DNA of 64,000 nucleotides from Thiocapsa marina 5811. Lineage in GTDB: Bacteria > Pseudomonadota > Gammaproteobacteria > Chromatiales > Chromatiaceae. The translations under genes and the position numbers were made by a program. The stretch covers positions 62,001 through 126,000 of the forward strand of contig NZ_AFWV01000014.1 of assembly GCF_000223985.1 (NCBI RefSeq). Reading direction: 5' to 3'. The notes under the pieces were generated by a model, which was not told the DNA's origin, searched no databases, and saw only the letters and a program-made list of their open reading frames with translations. Each line of letters starts with the position of its first letter. Position 1 is the first letter of the stretch. Of the stretch, positions 21,731 through 41,122 are shown piece by piece.

Positions 21731-25408
<3,678 letters not shown>

Positions 25409-25967
25409 CCAGCAGGTGCATTTCAATCAGTCGGAGTTTGATGGAAATCACCACAAATTCACTCCATAGAAAAAAGACAACCTTCCAACGCCTTGAAACT
25501 CAACTCCTGCTTGAACTTAAAATGTGTACACCGCCGATTTCAAGTTAAGAATTGTAAAGCCATCGACCGATTTCATCTGAATCCTTCTGCCAGCAGTCCA
25601 ACGCAAGGCACGGAAGCTTCGGCTATGATTTCCACCATGGTCGATGACAGGATTACATCGGACGTCATACACGCCCTCTCCATCTTGGGCAGATCCAACC
25701 CGTCACGGGTGACGACATCACGCGCCGGGCATCTAGGGTATGGGTTGGGAGCCATAAGGTCGGTCATGGGAACCTACTCCCCGTTGTACAGGGCATACCG
25801 ACGCAGCGTCGGCACCAACTGCTTGAAGAAGCTGACGCCCAGCTCGTGTGCTGGATGCCGATGATGGGCCTCGACCCGACCGGCACTGAGCGCAAAAAAC
25901 AGCAGGGCCGCCCCGCCGGGACTTTCCGGCGGTCTTGAGGGAATGGGTTTCGAGATCGAGACTGCGC
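25409..25967. other. Intergenic region with a possible gene remnant
   Basis: 559 bases between the unknown protein gene (ending 25968) and the kinase. The minus-strand frame ending in TAG at 25776-25774 reads with coding-like character over some 50 residues (HPAHELGVSFFKQLVPTLRR, then YALYNGE and stop) but has no start or family match that I can name. The AT-rich part at 25440-25560 probably holds the kinase promoter. Confidence 0.3.
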
Positions 25968-26588
25968 CTACAGCCAGTCGTGCAACGCGGAGTCCCTCTG
26001 TAGGTCGTGGGGATCCGCATATCGCGAGGAGGCGCCTCGTGCGTGGTCGGCAATCTGCCGAAAGGCAGGATGCGAGGTCGCGACATAGTTCATGATGATC
26101 GCAGGCGCCAGGGTTGGCAAGATCTCGCGTCCGCCAGTATCAACGATCTTTTGCTTGACGCCGTGGAATGGCGAACCGCCGAGATACTTCTCGGAGTACG
26201 CCCGAAGAAGATCCGCATGCCTAAGCGTTGTGACGGAGGAGAAGTTCCGCCTCACATAGAAGAGCCCATGCGCTGAAAAATGGATCTCGTCGCGAATTCG
26301 GTAATCCTCGAGCCGATAGCGGTAGACGAGGATCGCTGCCGTCACGGGATTGGGAGAATGGATCGAATGTCCCGGACGACCGAGCACGTCGATGACCTTT
26401 TTCCGGGATTCGCCGAACTCGAATTTGCGATGGATCAGGATGGTACGGCTCGATATTAATGGAGAATAACTGGAAGACGATGCCAGCAACTGCGAGTACG
26501 CGGACACACGGTCATATTGCTCTCTGACCTGGTCTTCATAGCGAATCCGAGCACGACTTCGTCGAACAACGGGTAAGAAATCAAACAT
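25968..26588 (-). CDS. Hypothetical protein in the wecA-rfaH operon, 206 aa
   Basis: Third gene of a minus-strand run, starting MFDFLPVVRRSRARIRYEDQ, 64 bases after the rfaH-like stop. It is soluble, basic at the N-terminus, without signal peptide. The centre (FGESRKKVIDVLGRP followed by LVYRYRLEDYRIRDEIHF) faintly resembles the small SmpA/BamE-type fold, in which a glycine-containing helix precedes paired strands; this is only an impression. Its place beside WecA and RfaH suggests a part in polysaccharide production. The codon use is less GC-extreme than its neighbours and the gene may be recently acquired. Confidence 0.6.
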   Translation of the reverse strand: MFDFLPVVRRSRARIRYEDQVREQYDRVSAYSQLLASSSSYSPLISSRTILIHRKFEFGESRKKVIDVLGRPGHSIHSPNPVTAAILVYRYRLEDYRIRDEIHFSAHGLFYVRRNFSSVTTLRHADLLRAYSEKYLGGSPFHGVKQKIVDTGGREILPTLAPAIIMNYVATSHPAFRQIADHARGASSRYADPHDLQRDSALHDWL

Positions 26589-26652
26589 AGTTAACCGATA
26601 TTGAGGGGACGACAGGGACGTTGATGGGTGCGTTACTCGTCTTGCAAATGAC

Positions 26653-27165
26653 TCAGGCGGACCGAGCCAGGGAAGACAAGGGGAGCACGACTTCTGTCGG
26701 CCGGCCGAGAATCTGGATCAACAAACGCGCACGATCCTCGCCGTCATAGGCATCAAAGATCGCATCCAGCTCATTCAAGACCCCTGCGTTGACGCGAAGG
26801 ACCTGCCCCGGCTGAAATACGGGCTGAACCGGCGCCGTCGCGAGACGTTGCCGGATACACTCGATCAGTACGTCGGAAACAGGAAGCGGCTCGTTCCCGA
26901 ACGACACCAATCGGCAAACACCGAAGGTGGAGCGCAGCGGAGACCAATCGTCGATCCAACGGCGCAGCTGAATGAAGAGGTAGTTCGTGAAGAGCGAGTC
27001 TTCGACAGCCTGACGTTTTCCTTGCCGAACGCGTTCGAGCAGAATCCTTGGGTGATAGACGACATAGCCTTGACGCATGAGATTGATCTCGGCTCGTTGC
27101 GCTTGTCGCGGCTTGGACTGAACCACATACCAGCGAGCGGACTCGACGGGTTGCTCCTTGTCCAT
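26653..27165 (-). CDS. rfaH: RfaH/NusG-like transcription antiterminator
   Basis: A 170-residue NusG paralogue. The N-terminal NGN domain begins ARWYVVQSKPRQAQRAEINL and includes LFTNYLFIQL and STFGVCRLVSFGNEPLPV. The C-terminal KOW-like segment starts at FQPGQVLRVNAG. RfaH proteins bind RNA polymerase paused at ops sites and carry it through long polysaccharide operons. The ATG at 27165 overlaps the wecA stop by one base (TGATG), so translation is coupled; an upstream in-frame TTG is less likely. No canonical ops element (GGCGGTAGCG...) was found between here and the window genes. The symbol reflects the family; a specialised paralogue (LoaP- or UpxY-like) is possible. Confidence 0.85.
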   Translation of the reverse strand: MDKEQPVESARWYVVQSKPRQAQRAEINLMRQGYVVYHPRILLERVRQGKRQAVEDSLFTNYLFIQLRRWIDDWSPLRSTFGVCRLVSFGNEPLPVSDVLIECIRQRLATAPVQPVFQPGQVLRVNAGVLNELDAIFDAYDGEDRARLLIQILGRPTEVVLPLSSLARSA

Positions 27166-28265
27166 CAAGCAGCCTCCCTCTCGCTAAGGGCAACATGCCC
27201 GAGATTCCGTAAGTTTCGGCGTTTTCTGTATGACCAACGCAACACCCCCGGCACAATCCGATGCGACGCGAAGTAGAGACAAACAATCAGGAAAAAGGCA
27301 TAGAAGAGCATGGCTTCGGGGATGGAACGTGCCGTTGCCGAAACGGCAATCGCGGCCATGAGAACAGCGCCCGAAAGGATGACGCGCAGGGTGTTCTTCG
27401 GACATCCGAAAGCGCGCAACAGGTCATGGTGCAGATGCCGACGATCTGCCGCAAAAGGTGATCGGCCGCGCCGTATGCGTCGCGCCATGACGCCGAAGGT
27501 ATCCAAGAGCGGGATTGCGGTCAGCCAGAGGGCGGCAACCGGCGCGATGTCGGACGCCGTCGCTTGCGTGACCTCGATCATCGTCCAGGCCACCAGGTAT
27601 CCCATGAGCATGCTTCCGGCATCGCCCAAGAAGACGCGATGTCGCGTCACTCCGAGGATCCCCAGGTTATGCACAAGGAACGGTAAGAGTGCGATGCAAA
27701 CCAAGGCGACCGGCAGGCGCGACGTCTCCGCAACCCCGGGCATCGCAAGCACGCCTCCCAATGCGATCAACGCGAGCCCGCCGGCGAGCCCGTCCATCCC
27801 ATCGATCATATTGAAGGCGTTGATCATGCCGACGATCGCAATCATGGTCACCGGAACGGCCATGATGCCGAGCTCCACCGGACCCGTTCCGAAGATGTCG
27901 CCGAGCGAGTCGAGTCGGACATCCGTCCCGAAGATGAGCAGAAGCGCACTTGTCGCCTGACCGGCAAAACGGATGCGGACGCCGAGGTGAAAGCGATCAT
28001 CCATTGTGCCGACGACAACCAACACTCCGGCGCCAAGGAGCAGGAAAAGAGCGTGCGTACACAGCGGAAACCACCAAGAAGCGCCCGCCAGGATGCCGCC
28101 GTAGATCGCGATTCCCCCAACGACCGGGACCGGCACTGAATGGCGTTTGCGTCTTTGGTCGGGGCGGTCAATCAAACCCATACGATCAGCAAGTGGATGG
28201 AGGACGCGCAGAAGAATCCAGACCACGAGCAACGTCGATAGAAGGGAGACAAACACCCGCATCAT
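27165..28265 (-). CDS. wecA: Undecaprenyl-phosphate sugar-1-phosphate transferase (WecA-like)
   Basis: 366 residues with about ten or eleven membrane helices. This is a member of the MraY/WecA family, which transfers GlcNAc-1-P (or a related sugar) from UDP to undecaprenyl phosphate. Family motifs are visible: RKRHSVPVPVVGGIAIYGG near the N-terminus, MDDRFHLGVRIRFAGQ, NAFNMIDGMDGLAGG, and VFLGDAGSMLMGYLVAW. The late RRIRRGRSPFAADRRHLHHD is the WecA-type cytoplasmic loop with the HIHH-like metal element. The start is MMRVF at 28265. It leads an operon with rfaH and the 206-residue protein, so it probably begins O-antigen or exopolysaccharide assembly. Confidence 0.9.
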   Translation of the reverse strand: MMRVFVSLLSTLLVVWILLRVLHPLADRMGLIDRPDQRRKRHSVPVPVVGGIAIYGGILAGASWWFPLCTHALFLLLGAGVLVVVGTMDDRFHLGVRIRFAGQATSALLLIFGTDVRLDSLGDIFGTGPVELGIMAVPVTMIAIVGMINAFNMIDGMDGLAGGLALIALGGVLAMPGVAETSRLPVALVCIALLPFLVHNLGILGVTRHRVFLGDAGSMLMGYLVAWTMIEVTQATASDIAPVAALWLTAIPLLDTFGVMARRIRRGRSPFAADRRHLHHDLLRAFGCPKNTLRVILSGAVLMAAIAVSATARSIPEAMLFYAFFLIVCLYFASHRIVPGVLRWSYRKRRNLRNLGHVALSEREAA

Positions 28266-28394
28266 CTCGGCCCGGACTCATTGACTAGGGATCGCCAAGG
28301 AGATTAAGCGAACGGGCTTCAGTCATACAGTAAAGAAATGTGAATCGGCATGACGTTCTCGGATGACGCGATGAACATCGGGCGATGATCTTCG

Positions 28395-31300
28395 TCAGTC
28401 TCGGGGTCCGACAAAGGATTCCGCGATCGCGGCTCTAAGAGCACCGTGATCGATGGGTTTGCGCAGCACCAACGGCGCGTCCGGCAAGGCCTCGAGCGAG
28501 AAGGCCGACGGGGCTTGGCCGGTCATCAGGATCACCTTCAGATCCGGAAACGCTTGCGCCAGCGCGGCGCACAGGGCAGCGCCGTCGAGGACGGGCATCG
28601 CCAGATCCGACAACACCAGGTCGAAGTCGGCGTCGCGTCCCAAGAGATCGAGGGCGTCTTGGCCATTCTCGGCGAACGAGATCAGCATGCCGTCCAACAT
28701 CAGCAATCGCCCGACCGAGTCCCTGACACGCGGGTCATCGTCGACGACGAGGATCCGCAGCAGAGGCTTGGGCGGATCCTCGCGTGATGACCCCGGGGCG
28801 TCGAGCAGCGAGGATACTCGGGGGGCGAGCGGCATCAGGAGACGGAACTCGGTGCCCCGACCGACCTGCGAGGAGACGGCCAGACCCGCACCGGAGCGCG
28901 TGACGAACTCCTGCACCATGAACATGCCGAGCCCATGCCCGCGTTGTTTGGCCTTGGTCGAGAACAGCGGCTCGAAGAGCCTGTCGACGACCTCGTCTGG
29001 CATCCCGCACCCGGTATCGACAACGCGGATCTGGACGTACTCGCCCGGATCGACTTGACCGACCGCCAGCGGGACGGGGGCGTCCCACACGGCGGTCTGT
29101 GCGGCGATCAGCAGATCCCCGCCATCGGGCATCGCATCACGCGCGTTCAGGACGAGGTTCAGCAACGCGGCTTGGAGGAACGCGGAATTGCTCATGGCCG
29201 CGAGTCCGGGTTCGAGATCCAGCGTGAGGTTGATCTTGGCCGGGAGGATCTGTCTCAGGATCGTCACCAGCTCGCGAATCGTCTTCTCGAGCTCCACGCT
29301 CTTCGGCACGATGCCGCCTGCGCGACTGAGCGAGAGCATGCCCGAGGTGACGACCTTCGCTTGACCGAGCGCACTCTGGGTCTCTTCGATAACCTGAGCC
29401 ACCTCGGGATCGCCCTGCTCGCCGCTCAGGATGGCTTCCAGATAATAGAGGTTGGCGTCGATCACCCCGAGCAGATTATTGAAATCGTGCGCCACGCCGC
29501 TCGCCAGATGACCGATTGTCTCGCGCTCCTTCGCGCCGATCAGTGCGGCCTGAAGCTGCTCTTCGTGCTGCTGAGCGGCGATGCGCTGGCCGATCAGCCG
29601 AACCAGCTCTCGGTTCGGACCCGACAACGCGTCAATGTCGGCGCGTCCCCAAAACCTGATCACTAGGGCACTGACCCGACTGCCGGGTCCGGTCCACTGC
29701 AACGCCATGTGCAGACAGGAGACGTAGCCTGCCTGCCGAGCCCCATCCGGCAGCTGCGAGCCGACCAAGATGTGCGGGATACCGGGCTCGTGCGCGTCCG
29801 CGTCCAGCCCGACGCAGGCCTCGGGGATAGACCGGCCTTGCGCTCCATCGGCGTCCGGATAACGTGCGAGCGCGCGATAGGTTCGGTCCGATCCGATCGC
29901 TCCGACGTCGGCGGCATCCATGCCCAGCCCCTCGCACCCCAACTGCAGGATGGCGCGAAGCTCCTCGGTCGCCGGCAAGGCCTGGCTGGCCAGATCAACC
30001 AGCGATTCCAGGTTCTTGGTGTAGTGCATCAGCGTGGCCTCGAGCTCGCGCTTGCGCTCGGTCGCGGCCTGAATCTCGGTGATGTCTTCGACCATCCCGA
30101 GCGCCATGGGCCGATCATCGACCAGGCCGGGCAGCAAGACGACCCGCAGATCACCCCACACAATCGTCCCGTCGGCCTTGAGATAGCGCTTGGTCATTCG
30201 GTAGAGGCTGCGCTTTCCCGCCACAAGCTCCCGAAACAAGTCAAGCTCCGTCATCAGATCGTCCGGGCAGGTGAACTCGTCGAAGTGCATCCCGAGCAGA
30301 TCCTGCGGCGAATAGCCGAGAAACTCGCCGAGCACGCGGTTGGCCAGACTCACTCGCCCGTCGGGACCCGCGATCGCGATCCCGATGGGCGCATTCTCGA
30401 ACACCGCGCTCAGACGGGCCTCGCTTTCCTTGAGCCGCTCCTGTGCCCGATACCGAGCGGTGATATCGATGTCGGTACCACGGTATCCGAGCAACGTGCC
30501 GTCCTCGGCGACGACCGGGGCACCGTTGGTCAGCACCCAGATCGTCGAGCCGTCGGCGCAACGGAGGGGATTGCTGTAGTCGCTCAGGCGATCCCGGCGC
30601 CCGAAGAGCTGCAATGCCTCGGACTTCACGCGGGATCGCATCGATTCGGGCGTTAGATCGAAAAAGTGCTTTCGACCGACCAGCTCCTCGCGGCGGTAGC
30701 CGGTAACGGCCTCGGCCGCCGGACTGAGATAGGTGAAGAGACCTTCGGCGTCGACCTCCCAGTTGACGATCCGGCTCTGCACCGCGAGCTGGTCATAGCG
30801 CCGGTTGCTGTCGCGAAGCTCCGAGTAGATACGGGCGCGCTCGAACGCGCTCACCAGGATGCTGGCAAAGACCCGCAGGAAGCGGACCTCCGCCTCCGAC
30901 CAGTCCCGCGGCGCCTGCACCGCATCGAAACCGACGAAACCGATCAGGTGCTCATCCTGCAGCAGGGGCACCAGCACGACCGACAGGATCGCTTTGAACT
31001 GCAGGACCTCGCGCTCCATGGCCCAGGCCTCCGGGAGCTCCGCCACACGCGGGACGACAACGGCCTGTCCGGACTCGAGAAGCTGCATCGAGGCGGAAAA
31101 GCGCTCGATCGGCATCTGCTGCAGATGCCCGATCATCGGCTCGATCCCCGGGGCGACCCACTCATGGCTGTTGCTCATGGTGTCGGCAGCGCGATCGAAC
31201 CGGAACACATAGGCCCGATCCGACTCGGTGAAGCCGCCGAGCCGCTCGAGGGTTCGGTTGACCAGGGGGTCGAGATGCTCATCAAAGACTGCGACGAAGG

Positions 31301-33800
31301 CCGAGGCCAGCCCGAGCAGCTCGCGCTCGAGGGACTCGCGCCGCATCAGCTCGAGCTCGGCCTCTTGGCGGACGGTAATATCCTCATGGATTCCGGCCAT
31401 ACGCAGCGGCCGACCTTGCGCATCGCGCGCCGAGACGCGCCCCTGATCATGCACCCAGATCCAACGGCCGTCGTCGTGCAACATCCGCAGATCGCAACGG
31501 TATTGGTCGGTCTCGCCGCGGAGATGCCGCGCGACCGCGCTCTCGGACCTCGCGAGATCCTCGGGATGACAGAACATCTGCCAGGTCTCGATCGTGGTCG
31601 GCTCGAGATCCTCGAGGCGGCGGCCGATCATCTCGGCCCAGCGCGGATTCACCGTCAATGCATTGGTGACGAGATCCCACTCCCAGGTCCCGACCTGTGT
31701 CCCGGCGATGATGTCGGCGAGACGGCGACGCTCCTCCGCCAGCGCCGACTCGGCGGCCTTGCGCTCGGTGATGTCTCGCCCGATCCCGACGATCGTGTCG
31801 ACGCGGCCCTCCATGTCGAGCACGGCGCGGTCGAACCACTGCAAACACCGCCAACCCAGCACCGTTTCGGCGCGCTGCTCGATCCGACAGGTGTACGGCG
31901 GGTTCTGCAGCGCACGCATGGCCTCCGCCGTGCGTTCTCGGTCGTCCGGGTGGACACGCGGCATGAAATGATGGCCGATCAGCTCGGCCTCGTCGCGACC
32001 GAAGAGCCTGCAATAGGAGGGGCTGACATACTGGAATCGGCCTTGGGCATCGGTGCGGACCACCAGATCTTCGATGTTCTCCACGACCAGACGATAACGC
32101 TCCTCCTGCGCCCGCAAGGTATCCTCGACCGCGCGCTGCGAGGTGATATCGAGGGCAGTTCCGGAGAAACGCAACGGTGTTCCGTCATCGGCGAAATGCG
32201 CTCGACCTTCCGCGCGGAGAATCCGCTGCACGCCGTCGACACCCTGCACCCGATGCTCCACGGCAAAAAGACCATCGGGGCGGGTGAGGACGGCCTCCAT
32301 TGCCGCCCGCACGCGCACGCCATCCTCCTCGGGCACGACCGCGTAAAACGCCTCCAGGCTCGGCGTGACGGCGTCGGGCGCATACCCGAGCAGTCGAAAC
32401 CCCTCGTCGGACCAGGCGAGCCGGCCACTGACGTAATCGAAGTTCCAACTGCCGAGATGCGCGGTTGCCTGCGCCTCGCGCAGCGACGCCTCGCTCTCGG
32501 CCAACCGTGCGAAGCTCGCGGCGAGGCGGTTGGCCATGGCCCCGAAGGCGTCGGTCAGTGCCCGTCCTTCGGCCAAGAGCCCGGCCGACGGGATGGGCAG
32601 GGTCTCGCCCGCGACGACCCGAGCGGGCACCTCGACAGCGGTCTGCACGAGCTGTTTCAACGGACGCACCAGCAGCACGGCGAATCGGTCCGCCAGCAGG
32701 ATCGCGATCCCGGCGATCGCCAGCAGAAGCGTCAGCAGACGCAGCACCCTGCGCTGCAGCTCGTCGACCAGCGGGGCCGCACTGAGCTCGATCGACAGAC
32801 CCGCGCCCACTGTCGGGTCTGCAAGCGGCAGGGTCATGCGATAGCGCGCCTGCCGCCAGAGCGCCATCCGCGAGGGATGCCAATCCTCCGGCACGAGGAT
32901 CATCAGACCCTCGACCGCGGTTCGGACGACGCGCGTATGCGGCGCACCCGCGGTAGGCCCGATGCCCCCGAACAGCCCGATCGGACGGACCTCGAGCTTG
33001 GCGGAATCGGGCAGTGTGTTGCCGAAGAGCCGGGTCAGCTCCTGTACATGGCTCAGGATTCGGGCCGCTTCACTCGTAGTTGCGGGTGGGGCCGGGCCGA
33101 GATCGTGAATGGCGAGCACACCGAAAATCCTCAGGCGATCGGCGAGATCCTGCTCCAAGCGGCCCTTGAGATCGCGATTCTCCCAGGCAACAAGGAAGAT
33201 CGACGGCAGCAGAAACCCCGAGAGGAAGAGCGTGAACAACACCTCTCGTGTCGAGAGGCTGCCCGGGCGACCTCTCGCGGCGGCCACGGCCATGACCACC
33301 AGCCCCGCCAAGGCCGCGTTCAGGATACCGTTCAGGGACTGCTTGACCGCGACCACCAGGGTCTGGTGCCAGACCATCCCCATGACCAGACGATAGAAGA
33401 GCAGAACCAGGGGGACGCCGAGCAAAGCCCAATAGAGCACCACCGAGAGACCGAGCATCGGCACCTCGCGGCCGCGTCGTCGCGCGTGATCCCGATGCCA
33501 GCCCACAAAGGCCGCCTCGGCCAAAAAAATCAACAGCGCGAAGGGATGATCCCACAGAAGATAGGTGTAGGCCCCCGAGGCGGCTGCGACGATCAGGCCG
33601 GCACGGGTCCCGAGCCAGACAATGGCCAAGAGCACGGCCACGGATCCGAAGATGATCTGTAGGCCGAAGAAGAGCGAAAGATTGAAATGGTTGCCGACCA
33701 CAGCGAGCACGGCCAGCAGGACCGTGAGGGCCACGGTGTAGATCGGACTCATGGCCGCGCCGGGGCTAGCCGGGTCGGCGTGGCTGGACTGCTGTTTCAC
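28395..33800 (-). CDS. Giant membrane hybrid histidine kinase with five PAS and two GAF domains
   Basis: 1801 residues from a GTG at 33800, which has GGAG eight bases upstream. Order: about six N-terminal membrane helices (20-200), an extracytoplasmic loop (about 215-345), one more helix (350-370), HAMP-like linker (375-440), PAS 450-570, PAS 575-700, PAS 700-830, GAF 840-1000, PAS 1005-1130, PAS 1130-1255, GAF-like 1265-1410, HisKA with the HDFNN-type box (GVAHDFNNLLGV, His near 1436), HATPase 1530-1650 (KQRGHGLGMFMV), REC 1670-1790 (Asp near 1729 in LVLSDLAMPV). It follows the REC-EAL-REC gene by 77 bases on the same strand, so they probably form a two-component pair. Neither the loop nor the PAS domains reveal a ligand. 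Confidence 0.93.
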   Translation of the reverse strand: MKQQSSHADPASPGAAMSPIYTVALTVLLAVLAVVGNHFNLSLFFGLQIIFGSVAVLLAIVWLGTRAGLIVAAASGAYTYLLWDHPFALLIFLAEAAFVGWHRDHARRRGREVPMLGLSVVLYWALLGVPLVLLFYRLVMGMVWHQTLVVAVKQSLNGILNAALAGLVVMAVAAARGRPGSLSTREVLFTLFLSGFLLPSIFLVAWENRDLKGRLEQDLADRLRIFGVLAIHDLGPAPPATTSEAARILSHVQELTRLFGNTLPDSAKLEVRPIGLFGGIGPTAGAPHTRVVRTAVEGLMILVPEDWHPSRMALWRQARYRMTLPLADPTVGAGLSIELSAAPLVDELQRRVLRLLTLLLAIAGIAILLADRFAVLLVRPLKQLVQTAVEVPARVVAGETLPIPSAGLLAEGRALTDAFGAMANRLAASFARLAESEASLREAQATAHLGSWNFDYVSGRLAWSDEGFRLLGYAPDAVTPSLEAFYAVVPEEDGVRVRAAMEAVLTRPDGLFAVEHRVQGVDGVQRILRAEGRAHFADDGTPLRFSGTALDITSQRAVEDTLRAQEERYRLVVENIEDLVVRTDAQGRFQYVSPSYCRLFGRDEAELIGHHFMPRVHPDDRERTAEAMRALQNPPYTCRIEQRAETVLGWRCLQWFDRAVLDMEGRVDTIVGIGRDITERKAAESALAEERRRLADIIAGTQVGTWEWDLVTNALTVNPRWAEMIGRRLEDLEPTTIETWQMFCHPEDLARSESAVARHLRGETDQYRCDLRMLHDDGRWIWVHDQGRVSARDAQGRPLRMAGIHEDITVRQEAELELMRRESLERELLGLASAFVAVFDEHLDPLVNRTLERLGGFTESDRAYVFRFDRAADTMSNSHEWVAPGIEPMIGHLQQMPIERFSASMQLLESGQAVVVPRVAELPEAWAMEREVLQFKAILSVVLVPLLQDEHLIGFVGFDAVQAPRDWSEAEVRFLRVFASILVSAFERARIYSELRDSNRRYDQLAVQSRIVNWEVDAEGLFTYLSPAAEAVTGYRREELVGRKHFFDLTPESMRSRVKSEALQLFGRRDRLSDYSNPLRCADGSTIWVLTNGAPVVAEDGTLLGYRGTDIDITARYRAQERLKESEARLSAVFENAPIGIAIAGPDGRVSLANRVLGEFLGYSPQDLLGMHFDEFTCPDDLMTELDLFRELVAGKRSLYRMTKRYLKADGTIVWGDLRVVLLPGLVDDRPMALGMVEDITEIQAATERKRELEATLMHYTKNLESLVDLASQALPATEELRAILQLGCEGLGMDAADVGAIGSDRTYRALARYPDADGAQGRSIPEACVGLDADAHEPGIPHILVGSQLPDGARQAGYVSCLHMALQWTGPGSRVSALVIRFWGRADIDALSGPNRELVRLIGQRIAAQQHEEQLQAALIGAKERETIGHLASGVAHDFNNLLGVIDANLYYLEAILSGEQGDPEVAQVIEETQSALGQAKVVTSGMLSLSRAGGIVPKSVELEKTIRELVTILRQILPAKINLTLDLEPGLAAMSNSAFLQAALLNLVLNARDAMPDGGDLLIAAQTAVWDAPVPLAVGQVDPGEYVQIRVVDTGCGMPDEVVDRLFEPLFSTKAKQRGHGLGMFMVQEFVTRSGAGLAVSSQVGRGTEFRLLMPLAPRVSSLLDAPGSSREDPPKPLLRILVVDDDPRVRDSVGRLLMLDGMLISFAENGQDALDLLGRDADFDLVLSDLAMPVLDGAALCAALAQAFPDLKVILMTGQAPSAFSLEALPDAPLVLRKPIDHGALRAAIAESFVGPRD

Positions 33801-33877
33801 TCCTGTCGCTCCGCATTTGTATCCAAACGCGTCCCGGCGGCTCCCTGCCCTTGAAGGCCGGACCGAGCCGCCTGGCG

Positions 33878-35623
33878 CTACGAGACCTCGGCGCGGTCAT
33901 CGCTCTGCGGATCTTCGACCCGCCGCGGACCCGGCGAGCGCCCCGACGCGACGGGCGCACCGCCCGACGCGCTCTGATCCGGTCCGCCGATCAAACGCTC
34001 GAGCGTCGCTTCGAGGCGTTCCGGGGCAATCGGCTTCTGCAGAATTGCATCCGCACCCAAGACTCGGCACATATCCAGGACGTTGGTGTGGTGCCCGCGG
34101 ACCACATCACCGCTCACGGCAATGATTCGGGTGGATGGCGCGATTTGGCGCATCCGCTTGATCACCTCGAACCCGTCGAGCTCCGGCATGTAAATATCGA
34201 CAATCAGAACTGCGGGGGCAGTTTCTTCGCAGACCTGCAATGCGGTGCGTGCATCCGTGAAGGTCTCGCAGCGGTAACCCCAGGCCGTCACCATGCGTGC
34301 GATGGCATGCAGCATGCGTTGGTCGTCATCGACGACCATGATGGTTCGCCCGATCTCGCCCCCGATGATGCGCCCGGTCGGCTCGTCCGGCGCACGCGAA
34401 GGCTCCGCCTCCGGCTCCGGGTCCCGGTCAGGTTTAGACCCGGGTTCGGAATTGGCATCCGTCTTCGGCACGGAGAAGTTGCTCGCCAGCAACTCCGCTG
34501 TCATGGGCTTTCCGAACAGATAGCCTTGCGCGAAATCGACGCCTGCTTCGATCAACAATCGGCGCTGCGCCTCCGTCTCCACCCCTTCGGCAACCACCTG
34601 CAGCTCCAGCGTCTGACCGAAGCTGATCATGGCGCGCAACAACTTCAGCGCTTTCGGTGAATCGAACATCTCCGAGACGAACGACAGATCGATCTTCAGC
34701 GTGTCGAACGGGAGCTCGGCGACCGCCCGCATCGAGGAATAGCCGATCCCGAAATCGTCGATCGCCAACGACACGCCCATCAGATGGATCTGAGCCGCCA
34801 CGCTGCGCAAGATGTCGGGATAAGCGCTGGCAGCGCTCTCGGTCATCTCGATCTTGACGGCGCAGATTCCCCCGAGCCCGTCGACCAAGCGGCGCACCAA
34901 GACCAAGGCCCGTTCCTGCTGCAGGATCAGCGGCGAGAGGTTGACCGCGATGAAGGTCAGACCCGACGCGGCAAGCGTCTCGCGCGACTCGATCAGACGC
35001 TCGAACAGGGTCTCGGTGACCTCGTAGATGAGCCCGCTCGATTCGGCGAGCGGAATGAACTCCCCGGCACCGAGGATCTGTCCGCTCGGCAGCCGCAGGC
35101 GCGCCAGCACCTCCGCGCCCCTCAACCGCCCGTCGGCCGGCGAGACGATGGGTTGAAAATACGCGACGATACCGCCGCTCCGGATCTGCCATTCCAGATC
35201 CTGCCGAGTGATGCCGGCCCCGGCTTGCGGGTCTTGGTGCGGTCTTTGCGCTGCCGCCTTGACGCCCCTCTCCAGGATTGCGGGAAGATCCTTCACCATC
35301 CGGGACTTGGATACCGCCCCGAGGACCTCGATTCCGGTCGAGCGGGCGATGCGTCGCGCGGTATCGAGAAGATCGTCGCCATGCCCCGAAAGGAGAACGA
35401 CGGGAATCCCGGGATGGGTCTCGGCCAGCCAGTGGATGACATCGATGCCGTTCTCCCGCCCCAGACCGAGATCGAGGAGGACAAGCTCGGGAAGATCGGA
35501 CTCAAGCGCGGCCTTGAAGGAAGCGATCGATACATGGAAATCCACGGCATGCCCGAACCGCTTCAGGAAACGCCCCAGAACGGCCTCGATTCGAGGATCG
35601 TCATCAAGACACATCAGTCGCAT
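33878..35623 (-). CDS. REC-EAL-REC response regulator (c-di-GMP phosphodiesterase)
   Basis: 581 residues from the ATG at 35623, preceded by AAAGGAGAG. REC1 (1-125) has LDDDPRIEAV and the phospho-acceptor in LVLLDLGLG (near 50). EAL (140-390) has GAEVLARL (EVL for EAL, near 168), NLSP, KIEMTES, DDFGIGYSS (near 288), KIDLSF and AEGVET, so it looks catalytically complete. A proline/acid-rich linker leads to REC2 (430-550; VDIYMPELDG, Asp near 474). The REC-EAL half is of the RocR type; the extra C-terminal REC is unusual. The giant kinase downstream is its likely partner. A 195-residue paralogue lacking the EAL lies at 38220-38807. Confidence 0.93.
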   Translation of the reverse strand: MRLMCLDDDPRIEAVLGRFLKRFGHAVDFHVSIASFKAALESDLPELVLLDLGLGRENGIDVIHWLAETHPGIPVVLLSGHGDDLLDTARRIARSTGIEVLGAVSKSRMVKDLPAILERGVKAAAQRPHQDPQAGAGITRQDLEWQIRSGGIVAYFQPIVSPADGRLRGAEVLARLRLPSGQILGAGEFIPLAESSGLIYEVTETLFERLIESRETLAASGLTFIAVNLSPLILQQERALVLVRRLVDGLGGICAVKIEMTESAASAYPDILRSVAAQIHLMGVSLAIDDFGIGYSSMRAVAELPFDTLKIDLSFVSEMFDSPKALKLLRAMISFGQTLELQVVAEGVETEAQRRLLIEAGVDFAQGYLFGKPMTAELLASNFSVPKTDANSEPGSKPDRDPEPEAEPSRAPDEPTGRIIGGEIGRTIMVVDDDQRMLHAIARMVTAWGYRCETFTDARTALQVCEETAPAVLIVDIYMPELDGFEVIKRMRQIAPSTRIIAVSGDVVRGHHTNVLDMCRVLGADAILQKPIAPERLEATLERLIGGPDQSASGGAPVASGRSPGPRRVEDPQSDDRAEVS

Positions 35624-35752
35624 GTTGACTCTCCTTTCGGGACAAGACGTCGATCCCGACTGCTCGCCTGCCCTCGAGCGATGGCGGTTCACCCGGCGGA
35701 GTCAAGGCGCTTCGAGACAATAACGCATTAGGCCAAGCCAAACTCGATTGCT

Positions 35753-35773
35753 GCAAGTAAAGATTTATGAAGG
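35753..35773 (-). repeat. Short copy of the CTTTAC-type upstream repeat
   Basis: GCAAGTAAAGATTTATGAAG here matches CAAGTAAAGATTCGTGAAGG at 38958 and 40958. All three lie 125-155 bases upstream of minus-strand genes (35623, 38807, 40831), which makes a regulatory or mobile origin equally possible. Confidence 0.5.
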
Positions 35774-35810
35774 ACTTACCTGATTAAACCGCGCCCGGCG
35801 CGGTATGCAC

Positions 35811-35930
35811 CTGAGATCGACACATCAAAGGCACATCAAAGCGTTCGGCCGCCGCTTCAGGGCTTAAGCTGGATGGGGATCCTTAATCCCGGGGCGTCGG
35901 CCCGGGCTCGCATGGCGAGCCCCGTTGGGG
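35811..35930 (+). repeat. REP-like repeat, distant copy
   Basis: CTGAGATC, then GGCCGCCGCTTCAGGGCTTA, then a GC-rich palindrome (CCCGGGGCG...GGCTCGCATGGCGAGCCCCG). It corresponds to the pair of copies at 20155-20331. It fills the gap between the OmpR-type regulator and the REC-EAL-REC gene. Confidence 0.55.
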
Positions 35931-35942
35931 CATCGGAATCGG

Positions 35943-36650
35943 TCATTTGCTCTCGAGCCTCAGGCGGTAGCCGTGGCCTCGCACCGGCCAGATCACGAGC
36001 GTGTGGATGCCGCCGTCACGCAGCTTGCGCCGAATGTTGCCGATGTGAACATCGACCGTGCGGTCTTCCGGGGCCAAGGGCTCGCGGTTCAGCAACTGTG
36101 CGCGGCTCACGGCCCGTCCGTGCTGACGCATCAAGGTCGCGAGGATGCGGGATTCCGTCTCGGTCAAGCGCAGGGAGGCCCCGCTGGAGGTGTCGCTCAG
36201 GCTCATGGCGCTCGGGTCGAGCGTCAACGTGCCCAGTTGGATCGCGTCGTGAACGCTCGCCTCGAACGCATGTCGTCTGAGGACAGCTCGGATGCGTGCG
36301 AGCAGCTCCTCGATCTCGAAGGGTTTGGTGATGTAATCGTCTGCACCGGCATCCAATCCGTCGATGCGATCCTGGATGTCATCGCGTCCGGTCACGATCA
36401 TGACGGCCGCGGGGGTGGAACCGACAAGCTCGCGCGCCAGATCCATGCCGTCCTCCGCACCCAGATTAAGGTCCAGAAGCACAAGATCCGCGCCATCGTG
36501 ACGATAGAGGCGACGCATCTCGGATCCGTTGGCGGCGCTCGACACCGCGTAACCCGCTCGCGTCAGATGACGCGCAAGGACATGACCCATGCGCGGGTCG
36601 TCTTCGACGACGATAATGGTGGCAGGAATACTCGTCTCTCCCTTAACCAC
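35943..36650 (-). CDS. OmpR/PhoB-family response regulator
   Basis: 235 residues, a REC receiver (ATIIVVEDDPRMGHVL, phospho-Asp in LVLLDLNLG, TGRDD, and lysine in ITKPFE) followed by an OmpR-type winged helix (LRLTETESRILATLMRQHGR, TVDVHIGNIRRKLRD, PVRGHGYRL). The open frame starts with GTG at 36650; no ATG precedes the receiver. No cognate kinase is adjacent in the usual way, but the hybrid kinase and REC-EAL-REC genes follow on the same strand after 319 bases. Its targets are unknown; the CTTTAC-rich repeats upstream of three nearby genes are candidates to test. Confidence 0.92.
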   Translation of the reverse strand: MVKGETSIPATIIVVEDDPRMGHVLARHLTRAGYAVSSAANGSEMRRLYRHDGADLVLLDLNLGAEDGMDLARELVGSTPAAVMIVTGRDDIQDRIDGLDAGADDYITKPFEIEELLARIRAVLRRHAFEASVHDAIQLGTLTLDPSAMSLSDTSSGASLRLTETESRILATLMRQHGRAVSRAQLLNREPLAPEDRTVDVHIGNIRRKLRDGGIHTLVIWPVRGHGYRLRLESK

Positions 36651-36729
36651 GCAACGCCTGGAATGCGATGTTTTTGATAGGATCGGCCCCGGCAGACTTG
36701 ACGGCCGTTGAAGTCGGCGCGGTTTAAGA

Positions 36730-36769
36730 CCTTAAAAATATATCATTCTAAACCGTGTCTTCGCTAAGG
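36730..36769 (-). repeat. Inverted repeat left of the GNAT gene
   Basis: On the minus strand it reads CCTTAGCGAAGACACGGTTT then AGAATGATATATTTTT. It matches the plus-strand copy at 37536-37575 at 30 of 36 positions. The end of this repeat supplies the AAGGA that precedes the GNAT start at 36777. Confidence 0.6.
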
Positions 36770-36776
36770 ATTTTGG

Positions 36777-37442
36777 ATGCAACAAACATCGAAATCACTC
36801 GAAAACCTAGATCCTCCTCGGGAACCCGTCGCCGGCGTTGCATCGGAGGACTCCCCGTCCCCGAAACCGATGCCATGCCCCGTCGAGAGGGGCCCTGTCT
36901 CGTCCGGCGGAAAACAGGGCGATCATCAAGACTACGAGGGCTGTGTCGCCTGCGTCGATCCGGAACCCTTCGGCTTCGCAAGCTCGGATGGCTCGGCCGT
37001 CCCGTCGGGAGAATCCCCTGCGACACACGATGTCCGGATCGAGGAGAAGCCCTTGTCGGCACTGACGTCATCGGAACGTAATCGCCTGCGCATTTTAACC
37101 GACGGCACCGGGGACTCCCACATGCTTGCCGTTCTTCGCGAGCATCCGAAGCAGGCGCTGTGCTTCTTGGCGCGCTCGGAATCCGAGATCCTCGGCTGGA
37201 GCTTGGTGCGTTGGTTCAAACCCTTTTGCGAGCGACCTCGCAATGCGCATTTGAGCGTCTTCGTCGCGCCTGGTTGGCGACACTACGGGTTGGGACAGGC
37301 CTTGATCGAGGAAGCGGTGCAGCTCGCCGTCGCGCACGGACTGGTGGCCTGGGTGTACGCCGGCCGAAGCGATCAGCGTGATTTCTATCGCCGTTGTCCC
37401 TCGGTCGATCATATCAGCAACATACCCTTTCGAATGCGCTGA
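36777..37442 (+). CDS. GNAT-family N-acetyltransferase-like protein
   Basis: 221 residues from the ATG at 36777, which has AAGGA seven bases upstream. The first 85 residues are low-complexity, rich in Pro, Ser and Asp, and probably unstructured. The acetyl-CoA-binding GNAT fold covers about 90-221: EILGWSLVRWFK, then AHLSVFVAPGWRHYGLGQALIE, where RHYGLGQAL is the R/Q-x-x-G-x-G/A acetyl-CoA loop, and a final VAWVYAGRSDQRDFYRR. The substrate cannot be told from sequence. It is flanked by inverted repeats and followed by a transposase relic, so it may have been carried in. The true start could be further downstream. Confidence 0.75.
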   Translation: MQQTSKSLENLDPPREPVAGVASEDSPSPKPMPCPVERGPVSSGGKQGDHQDYEGCVACVDPEPFGFASSDGSAVPSGESPATHDVRIEEKPLSALTSSERNRLRILTDGTGDSHMLAVLREHPKQALCFLARSESEILGWSLVRWFKPFCERPRNAHLSVFVAPGWRHYGLGQALIEEAVQLAVAHGLVAWVYAGRSDQRDFYRRCPSVDHISNIPFRMR

Positions 37443-37496
37443 ACGAACGAAACCGGCTGAAACCATCCCGCGCGATCGTCGCTCGAGCCCGACTAC

Positions 37497-37520
37497 AAGG
37501 GGCGACTTAAGTCGTCCCTA
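37497..37520. repeat. Short palindrome related to the 33-bp inverted repeat
   Basis: The palindrome GGCGACTTAAGTCGTCCC resembles the core GACGACTTGCAGTCGTC of the perfect repeats at 42013 and 42199. It lies just after the GNAT gene. Confidence 0.45.
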
Positions 37521-38060
37521 CGGTGCATCCACGACCCTTAGCGGAGACGCAGTTTAAAATGATAAATTTTGGCTCTTGATGCATTCCAGACAGCTCGACG
37601 ACCAGCGCTGACAAGAGTGCCTGGAGGAGCCTCTTCCCGCGCGCACGACTGTTGTGGACGAACGGAAAAAAGCTCAGGTACATCGGGAGGTGTTCCCGGG
37701 AGATCCAGCGGTGAGGGCGCAGCCAGGAGCGCAACAACGACCAGGTGCCCTCGATGGTGTTGACGTGGACTTCATGGAAGCCATCACCATCCTCGTCGCG
37801 GGCGTATTCGCCGCGGCTGTGGCAGACGCTGTGGTGCTCGTAGCCCTATGCCGGCAAGCGTGCGTAGATATCATACTCATCGGTGTAGAAGCGCGTCCCC
37901 TCGGCTACGCAGGCGCGGATAATAGGTTCGATTGTCTTCTGTTGGACATTCTCCAGCATCCGCACCACCACCTCGCCGCGCGAGGGGTAAAGATTTGTGA
38001 AGAAAGGGCGCGATCGCCTCGGCGCAGACGGCGTCGATTCGCGCGATGGCCGTGGCTGGA
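37507..38060 (-). pseudogene. IS1595-family (ISXO2-like) transposase relic
   Basis: Minus-strand reading gives MLENVQQKTIEPIIRA, EGTRFYTDEYDIYARLPA, a TAG stop at 37848-37846, and then, in the same frame, GYEHHSVCHSRGEYARDEDG, HEVHVNTIEGTWSLLRSWLR, and FFPFVHNSRARGKRLLQALL. These are the second-Asp, HVN and ExT blocks of IS1595 transposases (DDE_Tnp_IS1595). Family members have tryptophan before GY, so one TGG-to-TAG change broke the gene. The N-terminal zinc ribbon and first catalytic Asp are missing or frame-shifted beyond about 38060. Confidence 0.8.
37536..37575 (+). repeat. Inverted repeat right of the GNAT gene
   Basis: Reads CCTTAGCGGAGACGCAGTTT then AAAATGATAAATTTTG, the partner of the copy at 36730-36769. 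It lies in the tail of the IS1595 relic. Confidence 0.6.
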
Positions 38061-38219
38061 CCCGGTGGGCCCAATAGCCTAGAGCGACCGACAACCGACC
38101 GGTCCCGCCCGATCGGAGGCCAAAGCCGATGTCAGGTCGAATGCGATGCATCGTTTCGGATGGGCCGAGAAGAGGAGATGCTCGGCCGCGCGTGCAATCG
38201 GATAGCCGGAGAACCGGAA

Positions 38220-38807
38220 TCAGTCGCGATCCGCGGGACCGACCAGGCGCTTGACGGTCGCCCGCAAGAGCCCGGCGCCGATTGGTTTCTCAAGAACGGC
38301 ATCTGCCCCCATAACGCGACTCATGTCGAGCACGTGGGTCCTCTTCCCGCAGCCCGCGTCCCCGCTGACGGCGAGGATGCTGGTTGGGCCAGCCATCCGC
38401 CGCATCCGTTTGATCACTTCGAACCCATCGATCTCCGGCATGTAGATATCGACGATCAAGAGGTCAGGCGCACTTTCCTCGGCAGCGAGGAGCGCGCGGC
38501 GAGGTTCGCTATAGGTTTCGCAGCGATAGCCCCAGGAGATCGCCAGGCGCGACGTGGCACGCAGCAAAAGCAGGTCGTCATCGACGACCATGATGCGAGC
38601 TGCGTCGCTACCAGGATAGCGGCCAGAGGATTGATCGACTGCTGCCGGGCGCAGGGCCCGATCGACAGGTCCGGAGCAAGGCGTGACGTTCCTCCGCTGC
38701 TCCTCGGCAGTCCCGGATACACCGAACAAGACTCCTCGGATAGGTTGCAGGAAACAACCCGATACCGCTTCGATCCGCGTGTCGTCGTCAAGGACGGTGG
38801 GATGCAT
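38220..38807 (-). CDS. REC-domain protein, EAL-less paralogue of the REC-EAL-REC regulator
   Basis: 195 residues from the ATG at 38807. The first 20 residues (VLDDDTRIEAVSGCFLQ) match the N-terminus of the regulator at 33878-35623 (CLDDDPRIEAVLGRFLK). After an unrelated arginine-rich stretch the protein resumes as that protein's second receiver: ARIMVVDDD, WGYRCETYSEPRRALLAAEE, LLIVDIYMPEIDGFEVIKRM (phospho-Asp near 117), and VMGADAVLEKPIGAGLLRAT. So it consists of an REC1 stub plus a full REC2. With no output domain it may act as a phosphate sink or decoy for the giant kinase, or be a decaying copy. The receiver active-site residues are intact. Confidence 0.75.
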   Translation of the reverse strand: MHPTVLDDDTRIEAVSGCFLQPIRGVLFGVSGTAEEQRRNVTPCSGPVDRALRPAAVDQSSGRYPGSDAARIMVVDDDLLLLRATSRLAISWGYRCETYSEPRRALLAAEESAPDLLIVDIYMPEIDGFEVIKRMRRMAGPTSILAVSGDAGCGKRTHVLDMSRVMGADAVLEKPIGAGLLRATVKRLVGPADRD

Positions 38808-38951
38808 GGTGACTCCGATGAGAAGGCCCCGTCGGAGCCTGTCCCTAAGCTCTATCCCGAACGGAATGGATCGGGTTGCATTAAGCCGGAACAGGTCGGC
38901 AGGACGATTCAACCGACATGGGTTTCACCACATTAGCCTCCTCCAAGACCC

Positions 38952-39120
38952 TTGGGGCAAGTAAAGATTCGTGAAGGCACCCTTGAGCCCTTGAGCTCTT
39001 TACAAGGCTTGATGTCCTGTCGTTGCTGGTAGAGCCCAGCGTAGAGGCTTGAGCCTCGAATCGTCTCCCGACACCCTGCCACCCTGCTTCTGCCTGCACG
39101 CATTCAGGCTTGAGCTCCGA
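38952..39120 (-). repeat. Diverged direct repeat, copy 1
   Basis: Shares CAAGTAAAGATTCGTGAAGG, TCGTTGC, AGCCTCGAA, CCCG..ACCCT and GCACGCATTCAGGCTTG, in order, with copy 2 at 40952-41122, exactly 2,000 bases away. It overlaps the last codons of the membrane/cNMP gene and lies upstream of the REC paralogue. Confidence 0.65.
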
Positions 39121-40831
39121 GAGCGGCGCTTGATGCCGTCGCGGTTGACCGTTGCCCCTGACGCAGCAGCAGTTCATCGATGACATCGACGAAGGCATTC
39201 ACTTTGGCAGCGAAGACGCCAAAGGCGATGGCGCGGAAACTCTCGTTCTCTGCGATCAGGCGATGGAATGCCTGCGACGGGAGCATCAAGACTTCAACCT
39301 CACCGTCCGCGACGCCCCGGGCCTGATAGCGGGTCGCGCTCATGAGGCAGGCCGTGGTCACGACGCAGCTATCACCAGGGCCGATCGTATAGAGTGGGAT
39401 CGGGGGCTGATCCGACGACGCAAGATGTTCGACTCGCAGACGTCCTTTCAGGATCAACAGGAAACCGCTGCAGAGATCACCCGGACGAAAGAGTGCCTGC
39501 CCGTTGGCAACCGAGACGCGTTTGCCGTTCCATGCCAAGGAGGTCTTGAGTTGCTCCGGCCAAGCGGGCGCGAGTGTAGCCAGAACAATTTGCGTCTCAT
39601 CGCTGCACTGCGCGCCTCCCGTCACCGGAGCGACTCCGTCGCCGCGCGCGGAGCGGCGCTGGTTGAAGCCAATGCGCAGCATCAACAGAATGGTGACCGC
39701 CTGCACCAGAAGCGCTAGGCCTGAAAGGGTCCAGTAGGTAAGCTCGAACTTCCCGATCAGCCCCACATTCACCAGGCCCTGGTTAACGAAAAAGTGCAGC
39801 ATGACGGCCATCGCAACGCCGGGACAGATCAGCACCCAACTGCCCGGCGAGATCTCACGTCCGAAGACATAGCGGCGAAAATAGCCTTGGCGTCGCAGGA
39901 CCGCCCAACCGAGCATCAGAAAGCTGATCTGGGCGCTGAGCAGCACCAACATGAGATCAAAGTGGTGAATGGCCGTGGCCTGATCGTCGAAATGAACCTC
40001 AGCCCCGTGCCCGAGGCGCACGAGCGCGATGGTCAACACCGTGAGGATAGGCACGCCGATCCAGAGGGTTGGAGCGGTTTCGGCATTGGCACCCGTCTCC
40101 ATCATCGAGCGCAGCCCAAGGACCATTTTTGCGGCACCGAGGAGGACAGCGACGACAATGAAGAAGGTCGACAGGACGTATCCCAGCCCGGCGATCCAAG
40201 GTGTGACACTCATGGCCGCAGGCGCACTGAGCCCCACGCCGACCATCACCAGCGCGAAGGCCGGGAGCATCTGTGCGAAACTGTTATTGCGCATGCAGTC
40301 GAAACCGCCCTGCGTAAGCACCCTCCCGTAGAAGTCCCCGAGCAGGCTCAACGCCCAGATCCCCACCAGAAAAAAGGCCGCAATGGCTGCCGGGAACAGC
40401 CATTCGACCACCGACCAAAGGCCGGGTACGAAGACCATCCCGAGGACGAAACCGACGTTGATGGTCATGGCCACGGTCAGCGGCAGGGCGAGCAATTGGG
40501 TTTCGGAGTTACCGGTCCGCAGCAGGCGAGCGGCATCGGTGCCGCGATAGCGCGCGAAGCGGACCAGGTTCCAGCCCAGCAGCCCCAAGTGCAGCAGCGC
40601 AAAGATCACAATGCCGGCAACGGCGACTGCGATGGCGCTCTGCAACGGCGTTGTCCCATTGGTAACGGCGACAATGATGTCTTCGAACACCGGGACCGGT
40701 CGATCCGGATGGGGTACCCAGAACAGGAGCCAGACATAGAAGTTGGCAGCCAACCCACCGGCACCGAGCGCGGCGAGGAAGTAGAGTGGCGAGTACTGCT
40801 CGTCCGACGCGTGCGGCGTCCGTGCTGCCAT
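39104..40831 (-). CDS. Polytopic membrane protein fused to a cyclic-nucleotide-binding domain (TsoY-like)
   Basis: 575 residues from the ATG at 40831, preceded by AGGAG at seven bases. Residues about 15-400 hold nine or ten hydrophobic helices (YSPLYFLAALGAGGLAANFY, NNSFAQMLPAFALVMVGVGL, ISFLMLGWAVL). The opening segment recalls the TsoY family of (seleno)proteins, a tentative match from memory; no in-frame UGA is present. Residues about 440-560 form a Crp/FNR-type effector domain (LFRPGDLCSGFLLILKGRLR, GPGDSCVVTTACLM) without a DNA-binding helix. Such a fusion suggests a membrane protein gated or tethered by a nucleotide or redox signal. It is a single gene, bounded on both sides by diverged direct repeats. 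Confidence 0.75.
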   Translation of the reverse strand: MAARTPHASDEQYSPLYFLAALGAGGLAANFYVWLLFWVPHPDRPVPVFEDIIVAVTNGTTPLQSAIAVAVAGIVIFALLHLGLLGWNLVRFARYRGTDAARLLRTGNSETQLLALPLTVAMTINVGFVLGMVFVPGLWSVVEWLFPAAIAAFFLVGIWALSLLGDFYGRVLTQGGFDCMRNNSFAQMLPAFALVMVGVGLSAPAAMSVTPWIAGLGYVLSTFFIVVAVLLGAAKMVLGLRSMMETGANAETAPTLWIGVPILTVLTIALVRLGHGAEVHFDDQATAIHHFDLMLVLLSAQISFLMLGWAVLRRQGYFRRYVFGREISPGSWVLICPGVAMAVMLHFFVNQGLVNVGLIGKFELTYWTLSGLALLVQAVTILLMLRIGFNQRRSARGDGVAPVTGGAQCSDETQIVLATLAPAWPEQLKTSLAWNGKRVSVANGQALFRPGDLCSGFLLILKGRLRVEHLASSDQPPIPLYTIGPGDSCVVTTACLMSATRYQARGVADGEVEVLMLPSQAFHRLIAENESFRAIAFGVFAAKVNAFVDVIDELLLRQGQRSTATASSAALGAQA

Positions 40832-40951
40832 GATGGGGCTCCTGAGTGACTACATCATAGGATTGAGAAACTTTGTATCTCGGGCAGGGATGGAGGCCAT
40901 GAGATCCATCAACAAAGTCGATCTAAGCCCCATTTATGGCCGTCAAGGGCT

Positions 40952-41122
40952 TTGGAACAAGTAAAGATTCGTGAAGGGCCAACCCTTGCGCGCGGTGCAT
41001 CTTGAGTCCTTTACAGATCTTTACTTCATATCGTTGCAGGTAAAGCTCAGCATAGAGACTCAAGCCTCGAAGCGTTTCCCGGTACCCTACCTCAGCCGGC
41101 ACGCATTCAGGCTTGTGTTCGG
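40952..41122 (-). repeat. Diverged direct repeat, copy 2 (with CTTTAC boxes)
   Basis: Lies in the 348-base gap upstream of the membrane/cNMP gene and matches copy 1 (38952-39120). It contains four CTTTAC or GTAAAG boxes within about 90 bases (40961, near 41008, near 41019, near 41041), which could be regulator sites. Nothing else was seen in this gap. Confidence 0.65.

Follow-up and report, generated by a model that had tools for sequence, protein, structure and literature searches.

Genes and direct repeats at the locus

The window, a 64,000-nucleotide stretch of DNA that was analysed as a whole, contains a cluster of signalling and exopolysaccharide genes. An OmpR-family response regulator with receiver and winged-helix domains (Response_reg and Trans_reg_C; 35943..36650, minus strand) is encoded inside this cluster, and it is proposed below as the candidate reader of a short direct repeat. 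Other minus-strand genes code for a REC-EAL-REC protein (33878..35623; likely ATG at 35623, in an ORF that opens at 35692), a REC protein without EAL (38220..38807; likely ATG at 38807), and a fusion of a TsoY-family membrane protein with a cNMP-binding domain (TsoY-cNMP; 39104..40831; domain and NCBIfam matches). Domain matches also identified, on the same strand, a hybrid sensor kinase (PAS, GAF, HATPase, REC; 28395..33800), a WecA-like glycosyl transferase of family 4 (27165..28265) and a PAS/hybrid histidine kinase carrying REC, Hpt, and GGDEF domains (21731..25426); the ORF next after the WecA-like gene is of the NusG family and RfaH-like (26653-27168). The REC protein is 45% identical over 223 residues to the C-terminal part of the REC-EAL-REC protein and, since the two proteins are related, their promoters may share ancestry. 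Membership of TsoY-cNMP in the TsoY family was supported by model NF047644 (497.6 bits, cut-off 150, residues 13-387), and the selenoprotein model NF047643 gave 65.9 bits, below its cut-off of 250. TsoY is listed in PMC13188914. The cNMP-binding domain is C-terminal in the fusion. Of the 38 relatives searched, G096 alone yielded a full-length match (94%), the others showing partial matches to each half. Two further arrangements were observed nearby. A GNAT acetyltransferase gene (36777-37442) is flanked by 47-bp inverted repeats (83%; 36735-36781 and 37524-37570) and looks like a small gene-carrying mobile unit; sequence related to 36660-36806 is present in G096 and G103. A perfect 33-bp inverted repeat (42013-42045/42199-42231) lies upstream of a CinA-like gene, and pieces of it also occur in G097 and G098.

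The earlier note had described two diverged direct repeats of about 170 bp, 2,000 bases apart and beginning with an identical sequence. Self-BLASTN of the 28-46 kb part of the window recovered this pair on the minus strand (38944..39112 versus 40944..41115; 71.7% identity in 180 columns, E 6.4e-22), a repeat search recovered it as separate blocks, and the 20-mer CAAGTAAAGATTCGTGAAGG is letter-identical in both copies (38958-38977 and 40958-40977). Copy 1 precedes the REC gene and at its far end overlaps the 3' terminus of TsoY-cNMP; copy 2 lies between the CinA-like gene and TsoY-cNMP. The four CTTTAC/GTAAAG hexamers previously noticed in copy 2 are present at 40961, 41009, 41019, and 41040.

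The core shared by these copies is a direct repeat whose period is 10 bp, reading CTTYAC-N4-CTTTAC along the minus-strand genes and GTAAAG-N4-GTRAAG on the opposite strand; it thus has the tandem direct half-sites with a period of about 10-11 bp of OmpR/PhoB operators. Allowing up to three mismatches, GTAAAGATTYGTGAAG matched the window seven times against 0.27 expected, a number reached in none of 100 shuffles. Six of these sites were found by both pattern and profile searches, all on the minus strand: CTTCACGAATCTTTAC in the promoters of REC (38961..38976) and TsoY-cNMP (40961..40976), CTTCATAAATCTTTAC in that of REC-EAL-REC (35757..35772), CTTCACAAATCTTTAC at 37987..38002, ATTCACATTTCTTTAC at 28330..28345, 64 bp before the WecA-like ORF, and CTTTACAATTCTTAAC at 25544..25559, before the gene for the GGDEF hybrid kinase. 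The seventh, CTTTACAGATCTTTAC (41009..41024, plus strand), runs in the opposite direction within copy 2 and was not among the profile matches at E<=2; it has the same letters in G103 and G098, and is variable in G097, and in copy 1 only a half-site is left at its position. The earlier note had reported a recurrence of the core upstream of REC-EAL-REC, which was found at 35757, and the site at 37987 is a further recurrence that it did not list. It had also placed the cores 125-155 bases upstream of minus-strand genes, in agreement with distances of about 134, 154, and 130 bases from the likely ATG codons at 35623, 38807, and 40831, respectively.

The site at 37987 is orphaned, with no obvious target gene in this genome. 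The sequence diverges 14 bases past the repeat, into a weak match to an IS1595-type transposase (22.3 bits against a cut-off of 27), and the site probably stands beside an IS remnant. Its counterparts in G096 and G103 precede a gene for a sigma-54-type response regulator, which in G096 stands next to a GvpL/GvpF (gas-vesicle) gene. Of 30 forward sites, 18 have a TAA[TAG] motif 23-27 nt past the repeat and 12 do not; as a raw count, this spacing is suggestive only, and it would set the repeat immediately before the -35 region.

Distribution and conservation of the repeat

The genome containing the window (G000; genus Thiocapsa, 5.59 Mb in 62 contigs) was searched for other copies. Exact GTAAAGATTNNTGAAG has four matches genome-wide, all inside the window; one mismatch adds one more, and the reversed-pattern control gave one. 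Among 96 genomes of the family, the exact sequence occurs in two (four matches in G000 and one in G037; none in the controls). The looser pattern CTTYACN4CTTTAC gave 22 matches in 8 of the 11 genus genomes, 15 of them at cluster genes, and three with the reversed control. The seven matches outside cluster genes are distributed among G000 and G023 (one each, within the same coding gene), G071 (one), and G096 (four: three in one repeated stretch, plus one more).

A profile of the repeat, R1, found six sites in G000 at E<=2, all within 15.4 kb (25543-40976 of the window). Three of these six belong to its training set, and each of the remaining three shares all 16 letters with a trained site. Across the 11 genomes, it gave 27 matches at E<=2 in seven genomes, 22 of them at cluster genes; the remaining five all belong to G096, four being within about 14 kb of a copy of the regulator or of REC-EAL-REC and one elsewhere. 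No R1 match at E<=2 was obtained in G023 and G102, where neither regulator nor REC-EAL-REC was found at the thresholds used. Since 150 of the 413 first-look candidates were scored in G000, and since R1 misses a trained site of G071 and the window site at 41009, absence from the rest of the genome can be claimed for strong sites alone. A matrix built from the 11 REC-EAL-REC sites alone gave the seven window sites its highest scores (29.2 to 18.0; next 16.5), recovering those at 28330 (WecA-like gene) and 25544 (GGDEF hybrid kinase). The predicted regulon is almost wholly confined to one signalling/exopolysaccharide cluster. The earlier note had named random scatter over the genome, with no link to gene starts, as the outcome that would speak against a regulatory role; the matches show the opposite, being clustered at gene starts. 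The idea of a shared control element is well supported by this conserved repeat before gene starts, whose best genome-wide matches are confined to the cluster. A genome-wide repeat family was rejected, as the exact core is confined to the cluster; in genus relatives, the full element was found at this locus only, besides short low-scoring pieces.

The repeat is present upstream of REC-EAL-REC in 10 of 11 Thiocapsa genus copies and in the Chromatiaceae MAG SJ691. Among the 15 upstream sequences aligned, it is absent from G100, from Thioalkalivibrio (L081), and from Halochromatium (L084), and Thiodictyon (L082) has the looser form TTTTACAGTTTTTTAC. G100 lacks the repeat yet contains relatives of both the regulator (59%) and REC-EAL-REC. 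In nine chosen upstream sequences, no other 16-base stretch is as well conserved as the repeat, whose mean pairwise identity is 0.83, versus 0.62 downstream and 0.43 upstream of it. Related sites following the hybrid kinase occur in G101, G096, G071, G097, G098, and G103. The site just after this kinase precedes the WecA-like gene in G000, G101, G071, and G097, the longest WecA-like ORF opening upstream of the site in G071 and G097. G103 has two such sites, one before a NusG-family-like gene and one before a gene for a 206-aa protein; a matrix search of G099 did not find a site of the WecA type. The GGDEF kinase site is conserved in G101 and missing in G096 and G103 over the stretches that aligned.

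Several peculiarities of G096 were also noted. It contains three REC-EAL-REC loci (L072, L073, and L074), each with the repeat upstream; at least one is split over frames, and one is fused or truncated. Three near-identical stretches with CTTTACATTTCTTTACTTG (L231, L235, and L238) lie before one type of gene, whose product is by eye a putative secreted trypsin-like protease, for which Pfam found no family; two of them lie no more than about 14 kb from a copy of the regulator or of REC-EAL-REC. At L197 (G096:C1:2779048), the gene about 200 bp downstream of CTTTACGAACCTTTAC is by eye a putative REC-HD-GYP gene.

The candidate regulator

The reading we favour, with a probability of roughly 0.6, is that an OmpR-family response regulator with a cluster-restricted regulon, likeliest the one encoded at 35943, uses the core as its operator. 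The core is very probably an operator; granted this, the regulator at 35943 is probably its reader, as judged from sequence. The closest solved structure to this regulator is BaeR (E 1.3e-34). None of the named NCBIfam regulators among the 25 models listed reaches its cut-off (PhoB 166 bits/cut-off 296, BaeR 143/380, OmpR 140/331, CpxR 114.2/341). At E<=1e-60, the regulator has matches in 9 of the 11 genus genomes, and REC-EAL-REC in an equal number; this linkage of regulator and sites would look the same if one locus had simply been co-inherited. The earlier note had suggested control by this OmpR-type regulator, which linkage and family make plausible, but a box was found in only 1 of 10 of its own promoters: the strict repeat is present in G098, a variant in G097, and none in G000. 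General autoregulation is therefore not supported.

It is rather unlikely, although the best placed of the alternatives, that the repeat is a response-regulator box read by a different OmpR/CpxR-type regulator encoded elsewhere, the regulator at 35943 acting on other sites. Apart from the scarcity of boxes before the latter's own gene, this explanation would account for the resemblance to the CpxR consensus. According to PMC12802237 and PMC5063474, the CpxR box is a direct repeat GTAAA-N5-GTAAA with a 10-bp period, usually placed 50-200 bp before start codons. An exact match to it occurs at some of the sites, such as CTTTACAAATCTTTAC of G098 and G096, and GTGAA at others. In addition, a GTAAAGAAAGGTAAAG site in G071 precedes an unlinked response regulator/kinase pair. 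However, that unlinked regulator had no match at a strict E<=1e-60 among the 10 remaining genomes of the genus, including G000, and the sites gather around the regulator at 35943 and its relatives. As for CpxR itself, a search for an orthologue that might read the box found none at the strict threshold of E<=1e-60, and the linked regulator does not qualify as CpxR, with 114.2 bits against the curated cut-off of 341.

If the regulator at 35943 is the reader, two tandem CTTTAC hexamers, 10 bp apart, would act as its operator, closely followed by a -10-like TAA element. Bound there head-to-tail, a dimer of the regulator would recruit RNA polymerase, i.e., it would activate rather than repress. 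The predicted regulon probably comprises the GGDEF hybrid kinase, the WecA-like glycosyltransferase, REC-EAL-REC, its REC paralogue, and the TsoY-cNMP fusion. The regulator would control these genes, with the WecA-like gene as part of an operon, and might thereby take part in c-di-GMP signalling and the formation of surface polysaccharide.

Duplication of the control region and comparison with known systems

The control region is present twice in G000, flanking TsoY-cNMP on both sides. It is single in G103, where it lies between the CinA-like and REC genes and TsoY-cNMP is absent from this place, and single in G097 and G098, between the CinA-like gene and the response regulator, with its first repeat degraded. 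In G096, copy 1 is retained and only about 40 bases of copy 2 are left. Because the element is single in G103 and G097/G098 and double around TsoY-cNMP in G000, the 170-bp copies are supported as duplicates of one promoter/control region. This region, originally beside the CinA-like gene, was duplicated, and different genes were acquired downstream. G103 may represent the ancestral state or may have lost TsoY by recombination between copies. In a comparison made for signs of such recombination, the element of G103 is nearer to copy 2 at 15 informative sites and to copy 1 at seven, which is no significant difference (p 0.13); counts including the flanks are larger, mostly mirroring flanking orthology. 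The earlier note had offered a control element and duplication scars as alternatives. Both hold in part, and they do not exclude each other.

A stronger version, in which the copies would be scars of a mobile or recombining cassette with TsoY-cNMP between direct repeats and the core would be of little import, seems improbable. It would fit the bracketing of TsoY-cNMP in G000, the single copy without this gene in G103, and the near deletion of copy 2 in G096, and the probable IS remnant and inverted repeats nearby reveal rearrangement. Nevertheless, conservation of the core extends to unduplicated sites ahead of other genes, and the informative sites of G103 gave no significant sign of recombination between the copies. 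A structured RNA (leader or small RNA) common to both genes was rejected as very improbable: blocks outside the core, such as CAAGCCTGAATGCGTGCCGG, are conserved across six aligned elements, but folding was no better than that of shuffles (z -1.71 and 0.07), the single Rfam match (17.3 bits) was far from its gathering score of 70, and the core, upstream of a -10-like element, falls outside the expected transcript.

With the core taken as the operator of the regulator at 35943, the duplicated control region would place the TsoY-cNMP and REC genes under common control. More tentatively, this regulator may own a portable promoter module, in which copying of the 170 bp with its two opposed tandem boxes recruits genes and the regulon grows. 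Its recruits would be TsoY-cNMP, the EAL-stripped derivative of REC-EAL-REC and, in relatives, the sigma-54-type regulator by the gas-vesicle genes; if so, c-di-GMP, polysaccharide, and buoyancy would be joined in a single circuit. An unexplained repeat is turned into a testable operator with a small predicted regulon in purple sulfur bacteria, which would tie together c-di-GMP turnover, polysaccharide initiation, and the TsoY-cNMP protein. Two of its targets, the GGDEF kinase and the WecA-like operon, were predicted from REC-EAL-REC sites only, and the local regulon would have been broadened via promoter-region duplication. A narrow, title-level literature search yielded no title describing this operator or its predicted regulon.

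A cluster-restricted tandem operator of the OmpR family is of a known type; its target set and the duplicated promoter region are uncommon. The CpxR box of E. coli and Pseudomonas aeruginosa is likewise a GTAAA-N5-GTAAA direct repeat with the same period, whereas the second half here is often GTGAA, and the CpxR regulon comprises dozens of envelope genes while that predicted here comprises one cluster. Tandem operators of the PhoB/OmpR family also have head-to-tail half-sites, next to a -10 element as is suggested for the repeat here, and a regulator with Response_reg and Trans_reg_C domains, but the Thiocapsa regulator fits no named family among the 25 models listed. Cluster-situated response regulators with local regulons are encoded amid their own presumed targets, and the Thiocapsa regulator gene sits in the same way among its own. 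Unlike in those systems, the targets here would bring c-di-GMP enzymes together with polysaccharide initiation and the TsoY-cNMP fusion, and the box has reached an additional gene through duplication of the promoter region.
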